Positions 19,301 to 60,870 of a DNA stretch of 64,000 nucleotides are shown here, one piece after another. Location: contig JAHDVF020000580.1 of NCBI GenBank assembly GCA_022606425.2, forward strand, positions 248,001-312,000, written 5' to 3'. Made by a program: the position numbers and the translations under genes. This DNA is from Lepidostoma basale (Eukaryota > Arthropoda > Insecta > Trichoptera > Lepidostomatidae). A model generated the notes under the pieces. The model had not been told where the DNA came from, searched no databases, and worked only from the letters and a program-made list of their open reading frames with translations. Position 1 is the first letter of the stretch. Each line of letters begins with the position of its first letter.

Positions 19301-22300
19301 TATCCACATCTATTGTTTTATTGTAGGATTTGTTATTTCTTTATTTTCATAGATTTTCTGCTCACCTATATGCTCATTTATAATATTTTTTTAAAACTCT
19401 TCTATATTTAAAGTTACTACTTTAAATAAATTCACATGGAAAGAAATTTTATTCTTAATGTTGTTATTTGAAAGTTCATTGTAAATAATGGAAATAAAAA
19501 AAATGTTAAAAATCTTTTTAAAATGTAACTAACTAACTAAGTATCACGTTGTCTCTCCGAAGGGGTAGGCAGAAACACTTTAACTGATGCGGCACTCCAT
19601 CCTTCTGTTTTCGCCCCCGTGGGAGACGCGGCGTGATTGGTTGCTAATCTCATCGCCACCAATAGGCATAAAATGTATATTTAATTCAAATCTACCATCT
19701 TCGACCGGTTTCATCAGCTCGCTGCCGAAACCAGTCGAAGATACAAAATATCAGTAGATTTAAACTAAATATACATTTAAAAAAGATTTTTTACAACAAA
19801 AAAAAATGAAAATTTTAACTTTTATGCTCCCTACATCATATCCATAAATATTTCTAGTTTGAATATATTTTAATTTTAAATCAGAAACAGCATTATTTAG
19901 TACAAATATATGAAAGTATTCACACCTTATGGGCAGAGGGTACATGTATAATCTTGATTCTTTGTATTAGATCTTAAAAAAATCAAATATTAACATTAAA
20001 ATCTGTACCTTAGAGCCAGACGGATGCAAAGACCATTTTTCGTAAAATGACTTTTTTATTGAATAATAATGACAAAAACGTTATCTTTTATTGGTAAAAA
20101 GATGAAAGAGCTACTTGCTATGGTTTAGAATTTAAAAAATCAAAAGGATGTAAAGACCAAAATGATCATAGAGCCAGAAGGATGCAACTCCATATACATG
20201 GATTTGCATCCATTTGTAATATCGGCGAAAAGACTCAAATCCATTTGCACCCTTCTGCCTCTAAAATCTGTGGATTTGCATCTTTTTTTGTCTATGGGTG
20301 ACGCGCTTATACTCTATTCTCACGATGCTGCAATTCTGTACCTTAGAGCCAGACGGATGCAAATCCAAATAGTAAGTTTTTCAGTAGAGCCAAAAACAAG
20401 AGCATGTTTTTATTTATGCCTATTAATTCATTGAAATGAATTATTTGAGATGTGTTTTTTTATTTTATATTGTAGTTCACTTCAAGTACTTTCATTTTAT
20501 GTAAAAAAAACATTATTTTATTTTATTATGGACCTTAAAAAATACAAATAAAAACAGTCTTATGGATTTGCATCCTTCTGGCTCTAAAGTATGTGGGAGT
20601 TGGTGCCAAATTATAAAATTATACTTAACTTGATTTAAATTATTTGAATTGGGAAAATTATAAATAAATAGAGATTGGGTGTTTTTATTGTTTATTTTAA
20701 AATTCTGTCTAAAAAAATTAAAAAAAATTCATACATAGAGGGAAAAATGAGTTTTATTTGAAAAAATGATTGTCATTTATTTTTTTAATTATTAGTTTTG
20801 TCTGTTTCTGGATCTTCTGGAGGATATTCAGGAACTGGTAAATTCAGGTGGGGTAAATTATTATAAAAAATGTGAAGAGGTTTCGGTATCCACTTCAATT
20901 TTTATCCACTTATTATTTTTGTAATTTCTAATGAATTGTTCCCAGTCATGGGGTATAGAGAAGGCATTCGACGCGGTGGAATGGAGAGGGTTGTTCGGGA
21001 TGATGGACAGAATTGGAGTCAAACACAGAGACAAACGAATTATCCAAGCGATATATAAGGAAGAAGCCGCCATCCTTAGACTGGGCAAGGATGAAAAGGA
21101 AGCAAGGATAAGACAAGGGGTGAGACAGGGCTGCTCTCTTTTCCCTGTACTCTTCAATGGCTATATACAATGTGCGATAGATGAAATAAGAGAGGAAATG
21201 GAACATAGAAGAGGTGTAAGACTTCACGGACGGAAAGTAGATATGACAAGATTTGCAGACGATATCGCCATTGTTGCCAACGATGAAATTGAACTAAAAG
21301 ATACCTTAGATACCATGGAAAAAATACTAAGTACAACGTATAACATGAAAATAAACAAAGATAAAACTAAGGTAATGACTGTGGGTAGAGATGAGCGCCA
21401 AATAAATGTTGAGATGGCTGGAACTGCGATCAAGAATGTAAAGACTTTTGTTTACCTGGGGAGCAGTATTACATGGGATGGCCGATCCAAGAAAGACGTC
21501 GATAGTCGTATCTACCAAGCTAAACATGCCTTCAATAAAAAGTCTAAAATATTCGAGTCCAACAATATAGACCTGAACCTCCGAAAACAACTTTAAAAAA
21601 CAATGGTGTTTTACTGTACAGCTGCGAGATTTGGTGCCTGGGCGAAAGAGAGCGCAAAAGGCTGGAGGCATTTAAGAGGTGGACCTACCGACGAGTTGCC
21701 CATGTTTCATGGAGGGACCACATTACAAATGAAGAAGTTCTCAGCAGAGTTGAAGAGAGTAGACACGTGTTGAACACCATAGTGGAGAGGCGCGCAAGAT
21801 GGATTGGTCATGTGTTGCGACATGAATGTTTCCTGCATAATGTGTTGGAGGGAATGGTCGAGGGATCGATTGGCAGAGGACGACCTCGACAAGAGTACCT
21901 AGACCAGATTTACCGAGATATGGGCTGCACCTCTTATGCGGAGTTGAAAAGAGTTGCCGAGGATCGAGCCGAGTGGAAGAGGAGATGTTTCGCATTGCTG
22001 CAGACCAATCGCTAGATTGAAACCGGAGAGAGAGAATGTTTTACGTATGGTTACTGATGCAAAACATTTCCAGTTTAAAATTTGTAAATCACAAATTTCT
22101 TCTTCGAGGTCACACTCATCTGGAAGTAGATTCTGAGCATTCAGTAATTGAACAGGCCAAGAAAAAGATTCGAAATTCATATGTAAAATTCATATAAAAT
22201 GTTCATACCCCATGACTGGGAACAATTCATTAGAAATTGCAAAAATAATAAGTGGATAAAAATTGAAGTGGATACCAAAATCTCTTCACATTTTTTATAA

Positions 22301-31357: not shown

Positions 31358-34300
31358 ATGAAGAATTTAAAAAAACAAGACCCTCAAGATGAAATTAAGT
31401 CGCCCCCTAAAGTTAGGGTCAAGCGAAAACACACCGAAAACGACAATAAAGATGATTCAACCAAAAGAAAATCACAAAAATTGAATGATTTTGACATCAA
31501 ATATTTCCGCAAACAAATTAATATTAAACCCGTTCAAGTCGTTAGTAAGTAAACATATTTGTAATATATATGGAACAGTTTTATAATGTAAGCAGCTATG
31601 ATGAATTCTTGCTATCGTTCTTTAGAGTTTCACATGTGTTTATGTTTTTTGTCTATTTGAGTTATTTGATGAAAAAATAATAATGGAATTATAACTAAGC
31701 ACGTTGTATCCATGCTACGTGCAATGACTTAATAAAAAACCTTTTTTTACAGATTTGACGCAATTTATAGAAGTTTGCACAAAGCCTCAAAGCTCAGATG
31801 ATTACATGAAACTGTATTTGGAAAATGGTGGTAATGCTAATGAAATTTTGAAGTTGCTGGATGACGATAACAAGAAAAACCCCACGATCGCTTCGGCTGT
31901 CTTCAGTGTGCTTCAATTGATATTTGCAGAAATTCAATCATCTTCTCCACATTTGTTTCAAGCTGCCGAAGAAACCTGTCGTTATTTTTTAAATTCTTAT
32001 GTTTCAACAATAGAATTTATGCTCAGTGAAAAATCAAATGCGAAACAGCAAAAAATTACTTTAAAATTACTCGGCACCATTGTTGGGCTCGGTCCCGAGT
32101 TAGGATTCACCGTGTTAAACCAGCTTTCCTTGCAACCTAAAACTTTAATTCATTTGGTAAAAAATATTCACCCTAATGATAAGGATGATGTTAGAATTGC
32201 TTTTATACAGTTTGCTATGGCATTTTTATTGGATGCTAACACTTCACTAATCAAGTCTGCTCTTGATAAACAAGGATTTCTCACATTGGTCATTCCCGGG
32301 TTAGTAAGAGATACTTCGGACACCGTGCTGATGGTTTTGAATGCTTTCAGTAAGAATGTAATTCACAATGTTAACATATCAAAAACTATTAAAATCAGAA
32401 CATTTAACCAAAATATTTTACTGTCTATTTTCAATTTATTCAACTGGAACGTTGTTACAAAGTCAGAAGAAGACAGAATTAAAGTTAAAGAGGAGGTAGA
32501 AACTGCCGTTTTTAACTTTTTGCTTGTTTTATGTACTTCTCATAAACATGGCATCTATTTCAATGATAAATTCTTAGGAACCAGTGATGTACCGACCAGT
32601 CAGTATTTGTGGAAAGCACTGGAATCATTGGAAGCGCCTTGGAATAATGAAGCGGCTGGACGACTCGTGATAAAAATGGTTTCCAATTGTCCTGATCTGT
32701 ATCGGCCTGTTATTCGCTTGGTAGAGCAATCCTATGAACCCAGACACTCGGAATTGTGGTTTAAAACTAATTTGTTTTTAATAAATACATTGAAATCTCT
32801 TCCTGCTGAGCATCTTATCGCCAGAATGTCAGATATGACGGCAATCCAAATTACAAACTTCATTAGAAATATCTATTTACCTATTCCGATATTGAAAATG
32901 TCTTTAAACGCATTGAGTACTTCAGATGACGCAGTTAGGAATCAAATTATTATCCTTTTACACACTATGCTCTCTAACATTAAGTCATATATGTATATCT
33001 TAGCTGCCAGGAAAAACGATGTTTTGGTTGTTTTAAAAAATCGCCTTGAAGAATTTTTTCTCAAGCATTTTCCATCCACAGATATTTTGATAACTGTATT
33101 ACATTCCATGCTGGACAGTTCTGATTTATCTGAAGTTACCCTAAAAGACAAAGATTCTTTTCAAATACCATTGCCCAATCAGAGTCGATTGTTGATCAAT
33201 GTAATAGATCTCCTACTGTTGTACAATGAGGTTCTACCAAATTCCTTAGATCCAATCACTACGATGCTGGACTCTAAAAGGTTATTTGATAAAATGGAAG
33301 CAATTACAGAAAAAGATAAAGGAGAACTTAAATTAAAGATTACAATGTTTCTTTTGTGCGCTGACAAATTTGCTTTCGCACCAGATAAGCCACTTTTTAA
33401 AGACATTTTGCAATCGGTATTTGAAGTATTTGTTTCTTCAGATTCATCAGTTTCTAGGGAGGCTAGACAGGTTTTATACAATATTCTTGAAACAACTGGA
33501 GTTTTTGAAAAAAACAGACTGGAAATTGCCTTATTATTGTCAGTAATATATATTGTCGGTTCTAAATTTGGTCCGTCTATAGCGGCACATATTGTTGATG
33601 TAGTCGAAAAAGTACATTTGTTTTCTGATAAATGTGTATCTAGTTTTAGTTGTAATGCAGATGAAGATGATGGAGATGGTTTAATTAAACATTTTGATGT
33701 GATAATTGATAATTTAAAGCATTTTAAAAATAGCCAAAATGATGAAAATGTAATTTTTGAAAAGTCCTTTCTTACTAATTTTATAATTGGTTTATTCGAA
33801 CATTTGAATTCAACAACCGATGATAGTTTTAAATTATTAATAAATTTGTTTTCTTTGCATCTGTTTCATTATCAGGATAGTGCTGATAGCATGTGGCAAA
33901 TTGTTGAGAAGTATTCCTCGGGGTCTTCTGTTGAAGATTACATCGTCAGTTGGAAGCACACACCTTCTGCTGTTAATTGTGATTTTGTTGATAAAACATC
34001 AGTTCTTTGTAAATTAAGTGACGCTCTTTTAAGTGACACTAAAATAAAAGTAGAAGAAATTTTTGTAAAAAAACCATCTGCCATCCTAAATCCTTCAGAA
34101 ATATTGCACCTGCAAACTCACAATAATTTGTGTCTATCAGAACGGGAATCTGAGTTATTCTCTTGGTTTAATCTTATATTATTTTATGTAACTCAACAAG
34201 GAAGGTTAAGCACATTGAATGAATATAGGTCATCTAATGCCTCAGTAGCGTTGAATCATATTCTGTTATTGGCTATAGAAGGTGACGTCAATTCCACTAA

Positions 34301-37300
34301 GCTACTACGGTTAATAATTGGAAACTGTTTGACTAATAAAACAATATTAAGAAGTTTTTCTCCTTTCAAAAAGCAGAAACTTGCTTCTAATAAATTTTTA
34401 TCCGAATTTTTGATCCAGTTTGTAAAAAAGTGTAATGAACACGGTATAGAAACTGCTTTGCTCGATTCATTACTGAGACCTTACAAGCACAAGATATTTT
34501 TATCCTTAATGACATATTTGAAAAAATCAGTTAAAGAAGGTAAAGGACAAACTTTACATAATATTTCGGAGATATTATCTACAATAAATTTAGATTTGAA
34601 TGATGCTACATTAATAATTATTGATATCCTGAAAATGGATAAGGCTTGTATGGTCTCTGAAGAGAATGAAGCATCATCGTGGATTCACATTTTATGTTAT
34701 ATCATTAATTTGTTTATTAAGCAGACAAAACTGATGCCCTTGTCAGTAATTCGAGGAGTAGCTTCTTTATATTCCAAGTTGATAACAGAATTAGATGTGG
34801 TTATAAATGTTACTGATTTTGAAGAATCCTTTTATAATTACCTTATTGCTAATCCTGAAATAATAATGTCAGTTCCGAGTTCTACCTTTGAAGCCATTTT
34901 TTCTGTCAAGCATGTTAGTAAATTTACTTCCAAAATAGGAAGTCTTTTGCTTAGTGTTAATGCAAATTTATTACCAAAATTTTGTCAATTTGTTGTGAAA
35001 TCTGACGTTTTAGAAAAACGTGAACTGGTTCTTCCTATGGCTAATGCTGCATTTTCCCATAATATATTATATTCAAACAGTGAAGTAATACAGAAATTAT
35101 ATGATAACTACAAGTCTAATATTATGAAGGTTTTGGAAAAGCCTCATAAAGCATCTCAGATATATGTAGACAATTCAGAGCTTATTATTAAATTCATTAA
35201 ATTATCCATGAGCAGGGTAGACTGTGAGAATTTTTTGAAAAAAGTGCATAAATTTGATTCTGTGGATGTATTTCATATTAATATGTTGGAGGCCATTTTT
35301 TTCAAAGTGCAAGAAAATTGCTTGGTTGATATTTACTCAAATAATTATTTGTTATGTTTATTTCATCTCGCTAACATTGCATTAAAACGGGATATACCTC
35401 AGCGTGTGATTCTGCAAAGACTTTATTCATGTTTAAAACAGTTTCTTTTAGTTTGTAACTTTAATAACAAATCTGATATCTTTTCTGCAGTGAGAGAAAA
35501 TGCTATCTGGACAAGTTTCTTTAAATCAGTTTTGAAATTCTATTTACAGACAGATACTAAAGAATTGAGTGAAAATGAGTTAGACAATAATGAAAATGAG
35601 TTATTTGGTATTGTCTCCTGTCTTGTTCATGTTATATATCCATCTGAGCACACAGATATTGCGGATCTTTTTGAAATGACTTCATCTCATTCTGAATTTT
35701 TAAACATCATGTTAAGTAGTCGTTATTTAAATGTCAAAACACAATTAGTAAAGTTGCTGTATGTAATGGTTTTAAAAAATAAATCGATAATGAAATCATC
35801 TCATATTACTGTCTATTTGAGTGCTTATCATGGGTCTTTAAATATGTGTGATAGATATATTTTAGGTTTATTGAAATTTTATGAACGAAATGGACAATCG
35901 ATGACGGAATATCAACCGTATTTATGGGGAGATATTGCCGCCAATCACTACGCTGTTAGGAGTAAGCGAGTGAAGTCTTCCTTGTGGAGTAATCCAACGG
36001 CCAATCACATATTGAATCTTTTAGACAAGGAAATGATTGAAAAAACTGTGAAATATTTTCCTGTGCAGACAAAACTAAATGTAGAGGAAGATATAATCTC
36101 CGGATCACACTACTTGTTTGGTATATCCAAAACTCAAACCAATCTCATGATTCATAACTTTGTGGAAGAAACGTTTAAGAAGAAATCAGGAAAGGGCTCA
36201 GTGAATGCCTATGAAAAATTATCTGATACCACTGGAAAATTGAAATTAGAGGAATATAAAATAGTTTTGAAAGATTTAATGAAAACAGAAGATTCAATTA
36301 ACATTGAAAGTGGTGTCAACGATTTGGATATTTATGATCCAGCATTCTTGATGCCTTTGTTAAATTTTGTTGTGACCCCAGGGTCTGCCGTGTCATGTCA
36401 TCGAATAGTACGGGGAGGAGTTCTAGCTCTTCCTCTGATGGGGCTTTCTTCAGATTGTCCTTACATGCGTGGAGCTGCTTTCAATATACTACAACGCTTC
36501 TACACACTCCTCGAATCTGAAATGTAAGTTTTTTTATCCCATAAAAATCATAACGTAGTAAAACTCTTTTTAACTTTTTGTGATAGATATTCTAGGGAAT
36601 TTAAAGTTGATTCATTCACATATTGTAGTTTTTGCTATGTGCTTGGTAATATAATATAAAATATTCAAATACAACATTAAAATATAAATACTTTTTAATG
36701 CGGAACTAAACTTGTTCAGTTTCGCTTTCTAATCACCTCAACGTATTTATAATAGTCTCTAAACGTTCTTGAAAAAGTGTGTTTTAATGTAAAAAAAAAT
36801 TGCACAGATAAAATATATTTTTTAATGCATTTATTATAAACGGCTACTTGCTGACATCATTTTAGAGATTGAACACTGCATGCAACTTATTAATTAATTA
36901 GTGTATTTTAATTTAATTCTTCTATGAATTTACATCTGTACTTAACGTTAAATAAATCATTATTATGCAGAAGTTAATGTATGTATTATGAATTAATTAT
37001 TTGTATTATTTTAGGTATTACAGAAATGATAAAGTGCTATGGTCCCAGTTCATCGACACATTGAAGAAAAGCTTGGACTCTGCGATTATAGACCCAAAGA
37101 ATGAGCAGCAGGTGGCGGGCATCAGTGTCCCCCGACTCCCTGCTGTGGGCGCCATCTACCTTGCCCGATCTGCGTTGATAATGACGCACCCCTTGGATCC
37201 CATGTTTAAACCTATCAATAATTTTGTTATATCCAAGCAATACATTAATTTTACCGTTGTGCCGGACCTATTGGATCTTTTCCACAACACTGATATTCAA

Positions 37301-38062
37301 TTCCTAGAAAGGCGTACGTGGATGCTGAAGATTTTACGCGATGGAGTAAAATCATTTTCTGATATTAAAGTTCTATTAAAAAGTGTTGCTTTTAAAATTA
37401 TTCTAGATTTCTATTCTAGCAATTTAGCCGATATAAAACAGAAACTTCTAATTTTAGAAATACTTAATTCGTGTATCTGTATTCCCAAAGCAGCAAAAAT
37501 TCTAACAGATGGATATGGTTTATTCCCTTGGTTAAGTAATTCTTTTAAAAATATTCACCACGATAACAAAAGTTTGATTTCAATGGCAATTAAATTAGTT
37601 TCTAATATTTGGATTAGTTTAGCATGTGAACCCCTTTCAAAAGGAATTGATTTATTGGTATTGAACTATGAGGAAAACACTATTGACTCCATCAGTAGCA
37701 AATGCTTTAGAGTAAGTGAGAGTAATCAGAGTTTTGTGCTCTGTTTACTTTTGGATTTATTACCTAAGTTGGCCGGAACATCGGTATCCGATTTAAAAAC
37801 ATATTTGAATATTTTTCATAAAATATCAAAGAATCCTTTGAACAATGTCAGCAAGTTTCAGTTGCTTTCACTTGTTAAGGATTGCAATTCATTGTTGGCA
37901 CTCGAGAAAGTATCAGCAACATTGACTTCCGCAATTGAGACGTGCAAAGTAAATTTGTTAACGAGCTCCTTATCTGTTTTAAAAATCAAATGTAATGATT
38001 CTGAAGTTAAATATTTGATTGTGAAATATTTGCATGAAATTGTGATGATGTGGATTGCATAA
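31358..38062 (+). CDS. URB1: URB1/NPA1, nucleolar pre-ribosomal-associated protein 1 (three exons)
   Basis: This is a large helical-repeat scaffold of the nucleolus needed for early 60S subunit assembly (the yeast Npa1/Urb1 complex). Exons: 31358-31544, 31753-36523, 37015-38062. Donors are GTAAGT, acceptors TTTTTTTACAG and TTATTTTAG, and the phases (1 and 2) join cleanly, giving 2001 residues. Residues 1-62 are lysine-rich and probably nucleolus-targeting (KVRVKRK, then KRKSQK). The Npa1 N-terminal region follows (for example LGTIVGLGPELGFTVLNQ). The NopRA1-type C-terminal region starts near residue 1445 (YQPYLWGDIAANHY). It includes YDPAFLMPLLNFVV and GLSSDCPYMRGAAFNILQRF, matching vertebrate URB1. 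Human URB1 is about 2270 residues, so this one is somewhat short. The 4.8-kb middle exon is uninterrupted and free of repeats. Confidence 0.92.
36524..37014 (+). other. URB1 intron 2
   Basis: A 491-base AT-rich intron with GTAAGT donor and TTTTAG acceptor. No insertion was recognised. Intron 1 (31545-31752) is similar and 208 bases long. Confidence 0.85.
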
Positions 38063-40533: not shown

Positions 40534-40570
40534 CACGATATGTTTCGGAGGATACCTCCATCTTCAGGTG
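40534..40570 (-). ncRNA. Hammerhead-like motif, left arm of the 40.5-kb foldback
   Basis: On the minus strand the parts are CAC (stem I), CTGAAGA, T, stem II GGAGG-TAT-CCTCC (perfect), GAAAC, then ATATC and GTG (stem I). The triplet is ATC instead of GTC, which breaks one stem III pair. Likely a slightly decayed copy of the right-arm motif. Confidence 0.45.
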
Positions 40571-43971: not shown

Positions 43972-45206
43972 TAACTAACTAACTAACCATCACGCCGTCT
44001 CCCCGAAGGGGTAGGCAGAAAGAATGGACTGCCACACCTTTCTTTCCTGACATATTTCTCTCGCTTCCTCAACATTCATACATCGTGTCATGCACGCGCG
44101 TCGATTTCTCTGACTCCTCACATGGCCGACATTCAATATTTGATTTATTTGATCGTGCCACGTTTTCCTCGGTCTTCCTCTATTTCTGGTACCATTTACA
44201 TCATTAACATATAATTTTTTTACCATTCTTTCTTCATTCATTCTTTCCATATGTCCAAACCATCTTAATGATCCTTTCATTATTTTGTTCATGACACCAT
44301 CATTCGCACCGCATTCACTTCTTATATTTTCATTCGACACTCTATCGTACACAGAATATCCACACATTCGTCTAAGAGATCTCATTTCTACTGCATTTAT
44401 TCTACTTTCATCCTTCCTTTGCCAGTTCCATGCTTCGCTTCCATACATAAGGGTCGGTAGAAGAACACCATTGTGCACTGCCATTCTAGCTTTTTTGGAT
44501 AGGTTTTTGTTTGCGATGACAACTTTAAGTGCACCATTCACTTTGTTGTCTGCCCCAACCCTTCTTTCAATATCCCTCTCCACTCGCCCATCTCTTGTAA
44601 ACATACTACCTAAATACACGAACTCAACTACTTGCTCCAAATTTTCACCATTCGCGCTAATGTTGCAGACTGTCATGGTTTCTTCCTTTTCAAAAATCAT
44701 TACCTTGGACTTATTAACATTCATCATCAGATCATTTCGCATGCATACCTCATACATACAATTCACCAGGACTTGTAGTTCATGTTCGTTGTCAGCAAGT
44801 AGGACAGCGTCATCCGCATACAAGAGACAGCTTACTGACACTCCGCTCATTTTGGCACCTACATCCAACCCTTTCAGCTCTTTCATACAATTGTCCATAT
44901 ACAGATTAAATAACCACGGGGACATTACGCAACCTTGTTTGACACCTTTATTGATATCAAACCAGGCTGTAAGATTTCCATTTACTCTGACACTAGCAGT
45001 GCTTTCCGTGTATAGCGACTTAATGGCCGTGATCAGTTTTGTACTTATTCCATATTCAGACAATATTTTCCACAACTTTTCTCTATTAACGTAATCATAT
45101 GCTTTTTGTAAGTCGACAAACGCACAGAAAAGTTTGCGATTTTTGGCCAGAAACTTCTCTGTCAATGTACGAAGTCCAAACAAACTCTTATAACTTAACA
45201 AAACTC
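43972..45206 (-). mobile_element. RTE-B retrotransposon, 5'-truncated, with open 403-codon RT frame
   Basis: This is a minus-strand insertion. The frame (43990-45201) starts inside the reverse transcriptase: LFCAFVDLQKAYDYVNREKL (motif A), VKQGCVMSPWLFNLYMD (motif B), the catalytic YADDAVLLA (motif C), then VEFVYLGSMFTRDG, YGSEAWNWQRKDESRINAVE, RWFGHMERMNEERM and NRGRPRKTWHDQ. It ends SILSAYPFGETA. The fingers and endonuclease are absent, so it cannot move alone. The 3' end is the phrase CTCCCCGAAGGGGTAGGCAG (reversed) and an (AACT)n tail at ~43972-43986. No stops interrupt the frame, so it is fairly young. Assignment to the RTE clade rests on motif order and the repeat tail. Confidence 0.88.
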
Positions 45207-45350
45207 TGTCATTGGTCTGGTGTAGAATTCACGTGACGATAAAATGGCGATAGATTGGCTACCTATCACATGTCATGAGAATCAATATAATAGCTAAAAT
45301 AAATGTGTTGTATACAGTAATTGGGTTCAAGCGACCTGTTGTATACAAGG
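45207..45350 (+). mobile_element. SINE-1 3' part joined to the RTE-B 5' end
   Basis: CATTGGTCTGGTGTAGAATT, then ATAAAATGGCGATAGATTGG and TTGGGTTCAAGCGACCTGTT, match SINE-1. It begins exactly where the RTE-B sequence stops. Confidence 0.7.
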
Positions 45351-52420: not shown

Positions 52421-53267
52421 TTGTGAGGAGACATAAAACTAGTTTTTGTTCATCACATATTGACTAACTTATAAATGGCGGTATATATTGAAGTGTTAGT
52501 GACAATGCTAGTGTATGAAAGTGATATATGGGGTGGTAAAATAGGTAGAATATTTTTTTATAAATTAAATCATTACGACCAATGTGTGAATAGACGAAAT
52601 ATAAGTAAAATAATGTTAAAGAAAAAAAAATTAAGTAATGCCGAAGGGATGTAAAGCAGATGAATGAGTCAAAATAAGAATAGGTTAATATTATGAAGTA
52701 AATAAAATTTATTCGAAGTTTGTATCCTCATTCATTAACAACTGTTATAATAATACATTATATAATTTATCATTAACAACATTTATAAAAATAATATCTG
52801 TTTCCAGATCTGTTAAGATGTCATTGACATGACGATTTTAGATATTTTAAGTACCCTATTCAATCTATTCTTCAATGAGTTTTCATTGATACTAGGATAC
52901 TGGGTATGGGAGATACGAATGCGGTCTGTAATGGGATACGTAAAAACAAATATTGATTTTTTAGTCGTGTGGCTTCTTTTACAATCATCTACCTGAGTAA
53001 GGGAATGGCTCCCGCTTGTGTTGGTGCCTGCTTCCATTCACACAGATGAGTACTCAATTGGAAAAAGGACCCCCCAAAGTGTTACACTTTACGGAATCAT
53101 CTCGGCGGAAGATGAAGTTGAGTGAACGCGACATTCACTCTTCAACTGGAAAAACGTGACGTAAAATATTAATATGTAATACACGCTACATATGAATATT
53201 TTATAGGTTATTTGGAAAGAAATGTAAAGCAAAAATAACAAAAGATGTAGATTTAAAATAATAAAAT

Positions 53268-53413
53268 AATTTGGTTATAATTGATGCCAGATAGTTTCAC
53301 TTGTAACCCTGTAAGCTTCATCAGGACAATATAATAACATATTTATGTACAATAAGTTAAATGAGTGATTATATTGCCCTGATGAAACTTGGGTCCAAGC
53401 GAAACAAGTTGGT
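53268..53413. mobile_element. Foldback element with hammerhead-like blocks, older relative of the 55.7-kb one
   Basis: Left: TTGATGCCAGATAGTTTCAC, then AAGCTTCATCAGGACAATAT. Right: ATATTGCCCTGATGAAACTT, then GGGTCCAAGCGAAACAAGTT. The arms correspond to those at 55.7 kb but have diverged. The RTE-B tail directly follows. Confidence 0.7.
53376..53413 (+). ncRNA. Hammerhead-like motif, right arm of the 53.3-kb foldback
   Basis: GCC (stem I), CTGATGA, AA, stem II CTTGG-GT-CCAAG, C, GAAAC, AAGT (ACAAGT, stem III less symmetrical), T as cleavage base, then GGT (stem I, one G-T pair). Core residues are intact. Confidence 0.5.
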
Positions 53414-53572
53414 TAACTAACTAGCTAACCAACCATTACGCCGTCTACCGAAGGGGTAGGCAGAAAGAATGGACTGCCTCACTTTAACCGATGCAGCACT
53501 CCATCTTTCTCTTTTCACCCCCACGGGAGACGCGGTGTGATGGGTTGCGAACCTCATCGCCAATTCATAAAT
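53412..53572 (-). repeat. Short element ending in the RTE-B tail, copy 2
   Basis: The tail phrase CCGAAGGGGTAGGCAGAAAG-AATGGACTGCC is identical to RTE-B. It then switches to ACCGATGCAGCACTCCATCT and GGGAGACGCGGTGTGATGGG, as in the copy at 19.53 kb. Confidence 0.7.
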
Positions 53573-53584
53573 TATAATGACCAT

Positions 53585-53862
53585 CTTTTTCTTCTTCTTC
53601 TTCTTCCTCAGCCTATTCCCGTCCATCCCTGGACAAAGGCCTCCTCCATTCGCTTCCATGTCACTCTGTCTTGTGCAGACTGCATCCAGGTTATTCCGAC
53701 ATGTCTGTTTAGATCATCCTTTCACCGTAGTTGCGGTCGCCCTGCACTTCTCTTTGGCGTCCACGGTCTCCAAGTCAGCAGTCTTCTTGTCCATTTTTCA
53801 TCTGAGCTTCTGGCTACGTGACCTGCCCATTGCCATTTTAGAGTCACCACCCGGTGGATGAT
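53585..53862 (-). pseudogene. Non-LTR 3' end, (GAA)n tail, minus orientation
   Basis: The plus strand starts TTCTTCTTCTTCTTC, then GACAAAGGCCTCCTCCATTC and CTTGTGCAGACTGCATCCAG. It is parallel to 46.19-46.47 kb. On the minus strand the coding end includes MEANGGGLCPGMDGN in one frame. Confidence 0.65.
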
Positions 53863-53885
53863 GATAACCATACCGTGGTTAAATA

Positions 53886-54403
53886 CTAACTAACTAACTA
53901 ACTAACCATCACGCCGTCTCCCCGAAGGAGTAGGCATAAATAATGGACTGCCACACTTTTCTTTCCTGACATATTTCTCTCGCTTCCTTAACATTCATAC
54001 ATCGTGTCATGCACGCGCGTCGACTCCTCACATGGCCGACATTCAATATTTGATTTATTTGATCGTGCCACGTTTTCCTCGGTCTTCCTCTATTTCTGGT
54101 TCCATTTACATCGTTAACATATAATTTTTTTACCATTCTTTCTTCATTCATTCTTTCCATATGTCCAAACCATCTTAATGATCCTTTCATTATTTTGCTC
54201 ATAACACCATCATTCGCACCGCATTCACTTATTATATTTTCATTCGACACTCTATCATACACAGAGTATCGACATATTGATCTAAGAGATCTCATTTCTA
54301 CTGCATTTATTCTACTTTCATCCTTCTTTTGCCAGTTCCATGCTTCGCTTCCATACACAAGGCTCGGTAGAAGAACACCATTGTGTACTGCCATTCTAGC
54401 TTT
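53886..54403 (-). pseudogene. RTE-B, strongly 5'-truncated copy
   Basis: A minus-strand frame of 161 codons lies at 53909-54394: MAVHNGVLLPSLVYGSEAWN, then RYSVYDRVSNENI, RWFGHMERMNEERM and NRGRPRKTWHDQINQ, ending SIIYAYSFGETA. It is nearly the same as the end of the 43.98-kb copy, with a small deletion (VRSRRACM for VRSQRNRRACM). An (AACT)n tail lies at 53886-53902. There is no RT domain. Confidence 0.85.
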
Positions 54404-54484
54404 ACATAGTGTATTTTTTTATATCTATAAGTTTAAAATGTCTAATCACAAAGTGAGTGCTTCATTTGAAAATTTAAAAATAAT

Positions 54485-54690: not shown

Positions 54691-55670
54691 TAGTGCACTA
54701 GTGCATAATAATTTACTTACATTAAATACAAATTCAAAAGATAATGTAACAATATTGTATTACTTTAATACTGTTCATTATTAAAATGGTTAATGAAAGT
54801 GAATAGTAATGAAAACTAAAAGTGTTTTCCTAATTGATTATTGTGTACGTTGGGGCGTTGCTCGTACCTGTAATGTTGTATGAAATAGAATTTTAACCTT
54901 TGGTAAACCTGAAGTTTAATTATAAAATTACCTTCCAACATTCTCCTCCCCCAACGGATTGCGGTTGATATAATCTGATCTCCGTTTGAGATTATTCGTT
55001 TTGTGGATCATTTAAAATCGTTTAGAAAGTATAGCAATTACAATAGTGCACGAGTTCTGAAGTACCATTATGGTTTTTACAGGTGACTAGGTACACTCCG
55101 TTCTGGCTGGAGCAGTGCATCGTACACAGGTGGATAAATAAAAGCAGACTGACTTTTTATCGAAAAAGTGCTCGCAACGTGTTTTGTGGCGTCGCACTGG
55201 AAAGGCTTCGAGGAATGATGAAATCGTTTTTTATATGAGAAAAGCAATTTAAGCATTCTTCGAACCGTTTACCTTCGCAGCAGCCGCGAGAGGCCGGCCG
55301 CTGCTCGGCTGCCGCAAGAAAGAGCTGACTTATTTACCGAAGGATTTGGCATTTGAACGTGATATAATTTATGTTCCGCTTTTGCATGTTTCAACTCCAC
55401 GAACATTTCTACTAGTCCCACACACATTCACGACTTAAGTTCACTTGTTTTTGAACTATATATTATTTATCTATAACTGTGGAAATCCATAATAACTGTT
55501 TTTTATGAATGAAAACACTGTTTTTCCAAGTGTATTTTTCTCGACACGTTTTGAAGGCTTTATACCTTCATCATTGGGAGAACGATATAAACTCAAAAAG
55601 TGGAAAATAAACTAAAAAACAATTAATTCTTCATATAAAGCACTTACTTTGTGGATAGACATTTTAAATA
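54691..55670. other. Spacer with GC-rich patch
   Basis: 55270-55330 contains a GC-rich CGAGAGGCCGGCCGCTGCTC. Near 55540-55575 a decayed hammerhead-like phrase exists on the minus strand (ATGATGAAGGTATAAAGCCT). No gene is supported. Confidence 0.4.
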
Positions 55671-55723
55671 ATTATATAAATAAAATAACTTTGTATTTAA
55701 CCACGGTAGGGTTATTATATTGA

Positions 55724-55763
55724 TGCCAACTAGTTTCGCTTGGACCCAAGCTTCATCAGGGCA
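55724..55763 (-). ncRNA. Hammerhead-like ribozyme motif, left arm (minus strand)
   Basis: It is the exact mirror of the right-arm motif: TGCC, CTGATGA, A, GCTTGG-GT-CCAAGC, GAAAC, TAGTT, GGCA on the minus strand. A transcript of either strand would therefore carry one complete motif in its 3' arm. Confidence 0.6.
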
Positions 55764-55838
55764 GTATAATAACTTATTATACTATAGTATAATAAGTTAT
55801 TATACTGCTTATATATATAGTATAATAAGTTATTATAC

Positions 55839-55878
55839 TGCCCTGATGAAGCTTGGGTCCAAGCGAAACTAGTTGGCA
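55839..55878 (+). ncRNA. Hammerhead-like ribozyme motif, right arm (plus strand)
   Basis: Parts in order: TGCC 55839-55842 (stem I), CTGATGA 55843-55849 (perfect core), A 55850, stem II GCTTGG 55851-55856, loop GT, CCAAGC 55859-55864, GAAAC 55865-55869. Then comes TAGT, completing the self-complementary stem III ACTAGT (55868-55873), T 55874 (GTT cleavage triplet), and GGCA 55875-55878, which pairs with TGCC. All conserved hammerhead residues are present. The one oddity is the extra A between the core box and stem II. Cleavage is predicted after 55874. No activity has been shown. Confidence 0.65.
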
Positions 55879-55940
55879 TCAATATAATAACCCTACCGTG
55901 GTTAAATACAAAGTTATTTTATTTATATAATTATTTAAAA

Positions 55941-56510
55941 AACAATTAGTCTCCTGAACGCGGTCTCCTCGGAGATCGATGTCTTTAATATAATATTAGT
56001 GAAAGTACGTTCAGAAGACAAATACTCTTGACTTTAGAGAGTATCTTGTCTTCCTAATGTCAAACCACCCACCATTCATGCGTTCCTGGTATTATATTGT
56101 AAATATTATATTTTACATGTACCTACTCAATCGATGGCTTTATCAATTTATATTGTTTGTAATAAATGTTTAGACAATAAACTGATTTGATTTGAAATAA
56201 AAAATAGCCTTCGTGTGGTGTTATTTTTATTCTTTAAAAATTTGGATAACTTTGACAATACGATGCACTGATTTAAAATATTTATATACTTCGTACATTT
56301 ATTTTAAGTAGTTGTGTGTTCAATATCTATAATACATATTTTTCGGGTAACAGACAGCTATTTGCATACATAAATAAAAATACACAGATTGAATAAGGAA
56401 CGTATGACGGATTGTACAACTAATCCATTAAAATCTGCTCTATTCAGATGAAAATTTGGAATATTATATTGTAAAAATAGGCGTAAAAACCTACCATATA
56501 TACAAGTTCC
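55941..56510. other. Spacer, nothing recognised
   Basis: AT-rich DNA with no supported feature. Confidence 0.4.
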
Positions 56511-58425: not shown

Positions 58426-60870
58426 CATCATCAGCCGTCTGTCATCCACTGCTGAATGTAGGCCTCTCCCAAAGCCCTCCACCGCCCCCTATCCATTGCC
58501 GTTCCCATCCATCCATGTCCAGCAATCCTCTTCAGATCGTCGGTCCAGCGGGCAGGGGGACGTCCAACTCTACGGAATCCTGTACGCGGTCTCCACTCCA
58601 GAACCCGTCTTCCCCATCGGCTGTCGGTTCTCCGACAGATATGGCCAGCCCACCGCCACTTCAGCCCGCCTATCCGTAGAGCCACCTCAGTCACCTTGGT
58701 TTGTTGTCGAATAAATTCGTTTCTAAATCTATCCCTCAAGGTTATTCCAAGCATGGCTCTTTCCATGGCGCGCTGGGCAACCTTGAATCTGTAGACTAGA
58801 CCTTTTGTCAATGTCCACGTCTCGGCTCCGTATGTTATGACTGGCAAAACGCACTGGTTGAAGACTTTAGTCTTGAGGCATTGTGGTATTTTGGAAGTGA
58901 AAACATGACGTAATTTCCCAAAGGCCGCCCAACCCAACTGAATTCTTCGGTTGGCTTCTTTCTCGAAATTGTTTCGTCCTAATTGTATGATTTGACCAAG
59001 ATATGTGTATTCTTGTACCACTTCGAGTGCCGACCCATCGACGGTTACTGATCCCGGGATAATATGTTCATTATACATGACTTTCGTCTTGTCCAAATTC
59101 ATCCCGAGACCCACTCGTCTGGATGCAGTGTTCAGTTCATCTAGCATGCCTTCTAGATGCCCAGCAGATTCCGCCAGAATAACAATGTCATCCGCAAAAC
59201 GAAGGTGAGATATGTATTCGCCATTTATGTTGAGGCCACGTTCAGACCAGTCCAAAGTTTTAAATATATCTTCCAAAGCACAAGTGAACAGCTTCGGAGA
59301 TATCACATCCCCTTGTCTGACTCCCCGTTGCAGCTCAATCGGTTTGGTCTTCTGGTTTTGGATTTGAACGGACATTGTGGCGTTATTATAGAGGCATTTC
59401 AACACCTGTACGTAATTCCAATCAATCTGGTTTCGCTGCAGAGACTCCAGAACAGCCCAGGTCTCGACAGAGTCGAAGGCCTTCTCATAGTCCACAAAGG
59501 CAAGGCATAGGGGTCGATTATATTCTTCTGTTTTCTGGATAATCTGCCTAACTGTATGGATGTGGTCTATGGTGCTGAAGTTTGCTCTGAACCCAGCCTG
59601 CTCCGGAGGCTGAAAATCGTCAAATCTGCGGGAAAGACGGTTTGTTATGACCCTTGAGAACAACTTATAAACGTGGCTTAGGAGTGAGATCGGCCTGTAG
59701 TTTTTTAACAAAGTCTTGTCTCCTTTTTTGAAAAAGAGGACCACGATACTTTCGCTCCACGCTTTCGGTGTGCATTCCTTACGCAGTACGGAATTAAACA
59801 TTTTTTGTAGTGCGCATAGAATTGGGAGTCCTCCGGCTTTTAGAAGTTCTGTGGTGATTCCATCTTCTCCTGGTGCCTTGTTGTTTTTCAGCTGTCTCAG
59901 GGCCATCTCAATTTCATCTATGTTTATCTCTGGGAGATCGTCAGTATGGTGGCGGGTTATTTTAGCTCTGGGATCACCATCTTCGTCATGTAGTACGGGC
60001 CTTGTAGCGTGTTTAGAGTAGAGACGTCCATAGTATTTTTCGACTTCCGCGAGTAACTCTGGTTTGGAGGTAACGATATTGCCGTCTTCATTTTTCAGTT
60101 TAGTCAGTTGGCTTCTGCCCAGTTTTTGTGTAAACACTTTGGACCCCCTATTCTGTTCAATTGCGTCCTTGATCATTTGTGTGTTTGCGTTTCGAAGATC
60201 CCTTCGAATCGCCGAATTGATCTGTTTACTCAAGTTTCGGGAAGTAATTGAAGCCATATCTGACCCAGCTATTTCTCGTCTCCTTTTCATGAGTTCCAGT
60301 GTCTCGCTGGAAAGTTTGGACTTCTTTCCATCACGCTTCGTTGGAAAGTGTTTACGTCCGGTTTCGTATAGGATTTTTGTTATACATGTGTTCTCCTCGT
60401 CAACATTTTCGGTATCTTCCAACGCGTCAAATTGGTTTTTAAGTTCTAGTTGGAAATTATCGGAGCTCACATTGGCTTCCAGCAGATTTGGGCGGATAGT
60501 TGATCTCATCAGTCGAGTTCTCTCGATTTTATAGTTGATATTTATGCAGGCTCTTACTAGACGGTGATCACTTCCGGTTTTAAATCTGTTGATAACCGTG
60601 ACGTCTTCAACTATGTGTCTCTTGTCCGCAATGATGAAGTCGATCTCATTTTTGGTAACTTTGTCAGCACTATGCCAGGTCCATCTCCTTTGGGGCTTCT
60701 TCTTGAAGAAAGAGTTCATCAGAAATAATTTCCGTAGCTCCAAGAAATTTGCTAGCATTTGTCCCCTCGAATTTCTGTTACCAATACCGTATGGTCCGAT
60801 CCACGATTCATCAAACTTCTGTATTCCCATTTTGGCGTTGAAATCTCCCATAACAACAACACTGAATTAT
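58426..60870 (-). mobile_element. RTE-A retrotransposon, young 5'-truncated copy with open 806-codon frame
   Basis: The minus-strand frame runs 60851 to 58431 without a stop. It begins in the endonuclease domain at MGDFNAKMG, followed by GIGNRNSRGQMLANF, NEIDFIIADKR and the SDH motif (TGSDHRLV). The reverse transcriptase then shows NNKAPGEDGITTELLK, KNYRPISLLSHVYKL, CLAFVDYEKAFDSVETW (motif A), GVRQGDVISPKLFT (motif B), the catalytic RFADDIVIL (motif C), and EYTYLGQIIQ. The C-terminal part has YGAETWTLTK, KWRWAGHICRRTDSRW and GRPPARWTDDLKR, ending QQWMTDG. The 3' end is a short TGATGATG run. An 11-bp target duplication TTTATGCTATT flanks it (58415-58425 and 60871-60881). Missing N-terminal endonuclease residues prevent autonomous movement. 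Confidence 0.93.

Follow-up and report, generated by a model that had tools for sequence, protein, structure and literature searches.

Head-to-head hammerhead motifs in a young palindrome of Lepidostoma basale point to a body-less Penelope-like insertion

What kind of element is a short, young palindrome that contains a hammerhead-type motif in each arm, and how was it written into the genome? The palindrome lies in the window analyzed here, a 64,000-nucleotide stretch of Lepidostoma basale DNA. Its arms (55662–55786 and 55816–55940) are perfectly complementary over 125 nt and lie 29 nt apart. A preliminary description had placed the palindrome at 55672–55940; these limits had to be revised, and the inserted unit was found to be 55626–55935, plus a 13-bp target-site duplication (TSD) (Table 1). 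The two ends are unlike, and a 37-nt tail, starting with ATG, is present on one end only. The palindrome is very probably a body-less, non-autonomous insertion of a Penelope-like element (PLE), made of two head-to-head pseudo-LTRs (pLTRs), one of which has a short tail. This identity is based on the head-to-head pLTRs, the one-sided tail, and the TSDs, which are documented PLE anatomy (PMC3846280, PMC11167929). The earlier proposal of a mobile element thus holds insofar as the palindrome belongs to one, but the palindrome appears to be two PLE pLTRs and not a self-standing element.

Table 1. Features of the young insertion and of older related sequences in the window (positions on the forward strand)
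Feature	Position	Strand	Remarks
Left TSD copy, TAAAAAACAATTA	55613..55625	.	Same 13-mer at 55936–55948
PLE-type tail, ATGTCTATCCACAAAGTAAGTGCTTTATATGAAGAAT (read on minus)	55626..55662	-	12-codon frame opens in tail
Tail-bearing pLTR, full arm	55663..55773	-	
Hammerhead motif with extended stem I	55711..55773	-	CTGATGA from 55759; predicted cleavage between 55728 and 55727
Junction (centre) between heads	55774..55828	.	Mostly repeated scraps of pLTR head
Inverted tail-less pLTR	55829..55935	+	End at about the pLTR/tail junction
Hammerhead motif with extended stem I	55829..55891	+	CTGATGA 55843–55849; predicted cleavage between 55874 and 55875
Right TSD copy	55936..55948	.	Same 13-mer as 55613–55625
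Older diverged copy	53253..53412	.	Left-arm hammerhead on minus (53339–53272), centre, right-arm hammerhead on plus from 53364
Older copy, outer right-arm piece	53861..53889	+	Split off by other sequence (53413–53860)
Old pLTR/tail fragment	54414..54470	+	nhmmer match; tail = MSNHKVSASFEN

In the 769-Mb assembly, 40 of 1304 candidate copies were scored, and 40 loci were read. The sister copies had a common anatomy of two head-to-head pLTRs, a tail on one side, and TSDs. Exact genome matches numbered 587 + 561 for a spaced hammerhead pattern and 91 + 84 for a pattern across the pLTR/tail junction, with no match to the reversed hammerhead pattern or to the control of the junction pattern, although the genome counts may be inflated, as the assembly may contain both haplotypes of some loci. 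Among the matches listed, close hammerhead pairs counted by eye were minus/plus in 13 cases and plus/minus in none, and two same-strand close pairs were seen (C36 and C64).

The tail, starting with ATGTCTATCCACAAAGTGAGTGCTTTATATGAAGAA, was found in 39 of the 40 loci, always on one side and with one match each except in L043, where the second match was part of an older copy. No tail was found in L020, and none of the 40 copies had tails on both ends. Six family variants of the tail were translated, and all of them started with ATG and were open for 12 codons. By position and size, the tail appears to fit the published PLE tail, described in PMC11167929 as an optional extension of 30–40 bp. In PLEs, this extension sits at the 3′ end of one pLTR and overlaps the start of the ORF. 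The end of the tail-less arm was measured in 32 copies (an anchor was lacking in 4 of the 36 parsed copies) and lay within −4 to +10 nt of the tail ATG in 26 of them; among the remaining six, L012 and L021 were thrown off by small indels, and L032 was truly shorter. Matches of at least 10 nt abutted both ends in 29 of 37 copies, compared with 65 of 1332 mismatched pairs. TSD length varied between copies, and the A+T richness of the target was judged by inspection only. The PLE reverse transcriptase (RT) motif was not found in a scan of the read loci, and viral contigs did not match either of two motif patterns.

Other repeats and genes were observed in the window. An older palindrome with hammerhead motifs lies at about 53253–53889, 2.3 kb from the young insertion, and a TAAC-rich stretch at 53414–53485 is repeated at 53887–53959. 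A decayed hammerhead-like repeat (ATGATGAAGG..CCTTC) adjoins the insertion site at 55573–55530 (minus strand), and similar decayed repeats occur in the flanks of L024, L025, and L039, which suggests that insertion of these elements close to other such repeats may be common. Another hammerhead-like family, CTGAAGA-T-GGAGG..CCTCC-GAAACATGTC, is present at 40566 (minus strand) and 40977 (plus strand), head to head and 0.4 kb apart, with further copies in L049 and L058; a wide scan for the GAAACATGTC-type motif was too loose to count and was replaced by the strict descriptor used below. A ribosome biogenesis gene with Npa1 and NopRA1 domains, which we take to be URB1-like, occupies 31728–38062. 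RT ORFs are located at 58431–60866 (minus), 43990–45228 (minus), and 20925–21596 (plus). At least the first is LINE-type, and the closest named proteins to this LINE ORF (58434–60866) belong to Bombyx, Dendrolimus, Plutella, and other Lepidoptera.

The centres between the two heads were parsed in 36 copies (L020, L037, L043, and L044 were dropped). Only L006, L007, and L008 shared a junction, a single 83-nt centre that is inverted in L007 and has small deletions in L008; the test for similarity of centres excluded fillers under 10 nt. The shared centre would be accounted for by template jumping via a palindrome that already existed, and the three copies demonstrate that transmission of an intact palindrome can also occur. 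In 33 fillers of at least 8 nt, 652 of 1328 bases lay under pLTR 8-mers in either orientation, compared with 46.6 after mononucleotide shuffling, which does not keep dinucleotides. The fillers of L033 and L045 contained no pLTR 8-mers, and the centres of L035, L038, and L039 consisted of one to three bases added to the two heads.

Agreement between arms was examined at site 84, the sole site that separates two subfamilies. In all 30 copies that could be scored, the two arms carried the same allele (A in 16, G in 14); the other 6 of the 36 were unscorable. Of the variant cells, 43 were shared by the two arms, 91 were confined to the tail-side arm, and 238 to the other arm; the last number is inflated by a ragged outer end and by deletions (L036, L041, and L042). 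Site 84 accounted for 17 of the 43 cells, and most of the others were in L034, L041, L045, and L016. Most differences between young copies occur in a single arm and seem to have arisen after insertion. In L034, and in no other locus read, a one-base insertion in the pLTR head occurred in each arm and again in the scraps of the filler, as would result from repeated copying of a single error.

The arm agreement indicates that both arms of one copy go back to one source, and a palindrome made anew from one template at each insertion would explain the arm agreement and the varied centres together. The insertion is recent, the best sister copies being 99% identical. The nearly perfect arms had previously been ascribed to recent movement or gene conversion; the former stands, but the latter is not needed, since near-perfect arms follow if both were copied from one template at insertion.

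The course that we propose has, taken as a whole, about an even chance of being right. A putative PLE enzyme would cut AT-rich DNA, and reverse transcription would be primed at the tail. The cDNA would extend through an intact or re-joined hammerhead to the presumed 5′ end of the RNA, where the enzyme would turn round on short repeats, the template would slip, and the same template would be copied again. The second copy would form the inverted arm, which ends at the inner start site; the junction would be patched with scraps, and the arm would be joined to the other target end. The order of these steps draws on the anatomy of the copies and on the published anole enzyme.

Two other origins of the arms have to be weighed against this course. 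In a PLE insertion with arms derived from two RNAs, each RNA would be primed at one of the two cut target ends and the products joined head to head. For the anole PLE enzyme, PMC11167929 describes cleavage and extension of both strands and two RT start sites flanking the tail; here, one end is the tail and the other stops about where the tail begins. However, the arms agree at site 84 in every scorable copy with both alleles about equally common, which means that both RNAs, or both passes, came from one source, and no copy has tails on both ends. We consider an origin from two RNAs possible but on the unlikely side.

A transmitted foldback unit that is copied whole, and whose unstable centre is rewritten later by replication slippage or hairpin repair, is improbable, though it has points in its favor: L006, L007, and L008 share their centre, the templated scraps also fit repair, and the arm agreement also fits inheritance as a unit. 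Against it, no equal centres were found outside these three among the 36 parsed copies, and L007 belongs to a different subfamily from L006, site 84 differing in both arms. The centres of L035, L038, and L039 add just one to three bases, and the genome likewise has head-to-head pairs of PLE RT motifs, whose spacing varies.

These pairs were found with a codon pattern for RYVDDx[FL], which we take to be the PLE RT motif and which had 57 + 51 genome matches, compared with 5 + 3 in the control. Among the matches listed, inspection by eye showed nine RT-motif pairs in head-to-head orientation within 2 kb and no tail-to-tail pair; the pairs on C219 and C848 look like one locus twice. A protein search with a query presumed to be a PLE-type protein led to P0127, a PLE-type protein with 55 scored places in the genome, 19 of which had a stop-free frame over 800 aa. 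The same search also gave P0138, which contains a GIY-YIG domain. The RT/GIY-YIG ORF is absent from the palindrome copies themselves. Two arrays (C308:2096364–2107766 and C502:3233–14630) each contain four PLE-type ORFs, in the order minus-minus-plus-plus with units about 2.95 kb apart, and are possibly one array present twice in the assembly.

A sister hammerhead pattern, with GCUC/GAGC as stem II and ACCGGU as stem III, had 736 + 762 exact genome matches and none in the control. Three PLE ORFs, on contigs among the matches listed (C92, C95, and C77), could be checked for a sister hammerhead. On C92 and C95, one lay 272 and 226 nt, respectively, beyond the 3′ end of the ORF match and in the same orientation; on C92, where the ORF has two stops, an inverted one lay 645 nt off the 5′ side of the ORF match. 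No sister hammerhead was nearby on C77 among the matches listed. Two of three would occur by chance with a probability of about 3e-7 under a uniform model, for a pattern noticed after the fact. Four RT-motif matches on listed contigs (C38, C64, C73, and C88) had no sister hammerhead nearby. No ORF joined to an exact young pLTR was found, and no exact tail was seen by eye at the start of a PLE ORF among roughly 100 of 175 places listed. The link to PLEs drawn in the preliminary description, a known association for hammerheads, is borne out by the pLTR/tail/TSD anatomy and by the PLE-type ORFs, two of which have a sister hammerhead.

Long inverted repeats and TSDs would likewise be seen in a transposase-driven DNA transposon or MITE bounded by long terminal inverted repeats, in which the hammerhead would be incidental. 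This reading was rejected for the asymmetric ends: the tail is one-sided in 39 of 40 copies, so the termini are not equivalent. The varying TSD length and the two PLE-type ORFs adjoined by sister hammerheads also argue against it, and we regard it as very improbable.

The PLE reading gives the hammerheads a place in the pLTRs, and their architecture was examined next to that of the consensus. A complete core with a cleavable triplet had been described for both arms, and all elements were found on the strands given. On the plus strand, TGCC (55839–55842), CTGATGA, A (55850), GCTTGG-GT-CCAAGC (55851–55864), GAAAC (55865–55869), TA, GT, T (55874), and GGCA (55875–55878) follow each other, and the motif in the minus-strand arm is identical. 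CTGATGA, GAAA, and the GUU triplet agree with a type I core (CUGANGA ... GAAA, NUH). The 4 bp previously given for stem I are present, and a further 9 bp lie across an internal loop; stem I thus has 13 pairs in two parts (9 + 4 bp), in which GUUAUUAUA-C-UGCC pairs with GGCA-UCAA-UAUAAUAAC (55829–55842 with 55875–55891, plus strand). The single A reported after CTGATGA is also present, but it is one residue beyond the consensus core, between A9 and stem II. Stem II had been drawn with 6 bp; it folds as 5 bp with a 4-nt loop, and the sixth pair, like the 2-bp stem III as drawn, closes a 2-nt loop, which the energy model forbids.

A stable stem III was not found, and helix III is usually missing from published PLE hammerheads as well. 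The monomer has only 2 bp around a 2-nt loop, and by the folding model its stem III can hardly form. ACUAGU is self-complementary, and its self-pairing in a dimer was calculated at −4.8 kcal/mol. In the minimum-energy fold of the RNA alone, some core bases were paired. Judged by sequence, each pLTR contains a minimal type I hammerhead with an extra A10, a 2-bp stem III, and an ACUAGU that could pair with a second copy, and the window motif has a real hammerhead architecture.

Scanning with the Rfam hammerhead models, which had been proposed as a check, gave no match at the gathering threshold or at E ≤ 10. The low scores were all under the family cut-offs, and fold-back of the palindrome accounted for those of MIR6217 and a trypanosome rRNA. 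A strict descriptor (core, stem II, GAAA, stem III, cleavable triplet, and stem I) matched the window solely at the two palindrome sites and had 1 match in 300 Markov-1 windows. The minus-strand motif scored 97.6 bits with covariance model R1, which has the window copy among its building sequences. When the stem III dinucleotide was left free, the descriptor had 5 matches in 264 kb (the window plus 20 ten-kb stretches) and 0 in 20 shuffled sets. In all 5, A9 was followed by one extra residue and the dinucleotide was self-complementary (TA in two, AT in three), both TA matches being the window palindrome. With CG in L058, three families have a self-complementary dinucleotide, which hints at action as a dimer; L003, L053, and L045:592 have other dinucleotides. 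At L045:592–652, a hammerhead variant, CTGAGGA...GAAACTGGTC, has a GUC triplet.

Conservation of the core relative to its flanks depended on the age of the copies compared. Among young copies, counts were 4/416 and 6/410 in the core and 10/1163 and 9/1194 at positions 47–85, with L026, L034, L040, and L045 left out, in a comparison that tests neutral decay only. The core was not more conserved than the flanks in these young copies, which is the outcome that the preliminary description had named as a refutation but is also what dead copies are expected to show. Older relatives were collected by a covariance model search of the loci and of 20 ten-kb stretches chosen by place, the latter (200 kb) giving 3 matches. 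Across 11 divergent sequences, the core was the best-conserved part, with mean identities of 0.98 for GAAA and 0.94 for CTGATGA, compared with about 0.82 for the stems and 0.78 and 0.65 for the outer flanks. The proportion of paired cells was 86.4% and the covariation score was 0.288, each above all 500 shuffles; two-sided changes occurred in 5 of 12 pairs, which 18 of 500 shuffles reached, and all these values contain some bias, since the 11 sequences were found with the motif model and are related sequences from one genome. The further copies and paired stem changes that the preliminary description had proposed to look for were both found, as 40 sister copies and as compensatory changes in stems I and II between families. 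Four of the 11 divergent motifs are not expected to cleave because they lack a proper U16.1-H17: position 17 is G in L003 and L053, and U at 16.1 is missing from the left arm of the old window copy and from L050.

A coincidental resemblance to a hammerhead, arising within an AT-rich palindrome, with which the missing Rfam match and the non-hammerhead fold of the single RNA would agree, was rejected as extremely improbable on the basis of the descriptor control (1 match in 300 windows), the 5 real matches against 0 in 20 shuffled 264-kb sets, the compensatory changes, and the 1148 and 1498 genome matches against zero in the reversed controls.

Spread through RNA self-cleavage, as proposed in the preliminary description, was not supported in that form. 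Both arms read through the cleavage site, so that the copied RNA was uncleaved there or had been re-joined. The putative ribozyme would cleave, probably as a dimer or with the PLE protein, to separate tandem transcripts. For the Poseidon PLE PAc of Anolis carolinensis, PMC11167929 states that unprocessed RNA was the dominant substrate in vitro, that catalytic mutants of the hammerhead had no effect on in vitro insertion, and that the hammerhead cleaved only with the PLE protein.

The insertion was compared with known systems as described in print. Penelope of Adineta vaga (PMC3846280), for which self-priming was proposed, likewise has head-to-head inverted pLTRs, palindromes at the inverted junction, solo pLTRs, a 31-bp tail on one pLTR, and a pLTR running into the first ORF codons. 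Its TSDs are 8–10 bp, and the TSD matches here are mostly 10–16 nt. The copies here differ in that they contain no ORF, have over a thousand motif matches against few copies, and carry hammerheads in both arms, whereas the word hammerhead is absent from PMC3846280. PAc (PMC11167929) is similar in the hammerhead within the pLTR, the AT-rich target, and the tail as the stretch between two RT start sites; however, PAc copies are tandem and those here are inverted, and the PAc ORF begins inside the hammerhead at stem II, whereas the ATG here is about 65 nt past the predicted cleavage site.

The minimal PLE hammerheads of Cervera and De la Pena (via PMC6155905 and PMC7229834) are also type I motifs in terminal repeats with little or no helix III; compared with these, the motif here has the extra residue after A9 and the two-part 13-bp stem I. 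Animal retrozymes are similarly small, non-autonomous, and of type I, with a weak palindromic helix III in the axolotl, but they form direct tandem repeats of 170–400 nt, and the copies here are inverted and have a PLE-type tail (PMC7229834). The plus-strand hammerhead of CChMVd naturally contains an A10 insertion between A9 and G10.1, although it belongs to a viroid, an unrelated element (PMC3705267). In a weak search, confined to titles and abstracts of the open-licence literature, no report of lepidopteran PLE hammerheads or of a junction comparison in such a family was found.

Whether palindromes are written afresh from one template copied twice, and several PLE families retain a dimer-type hammerhead (with a self-complementary ACNNGU stem III and an additional residue following A9) that Rfam misses, is in our estimate a balanced question. 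If this is true, the dozens of differing, scrap-filled junctions are a frozen record of how PLE inverted repeats are made. Transcripts beginning at GUUAUUAUACUGCC would account for the head that both arms share. PMC3846280 did not settle whether self-priming gives rise to head-to-head palindromes, nor which template would be used, and in PMC11167929 the later steps of insertion were not validated. Dozens of readable junctions, most of them different, together with subfamily alleles and clear TSDs make such insertion questions testable by sequence comparison, in an insect-like genome in which hammerhead-type motifs are numerous and go undetected by Rfam models in the pieces tested.
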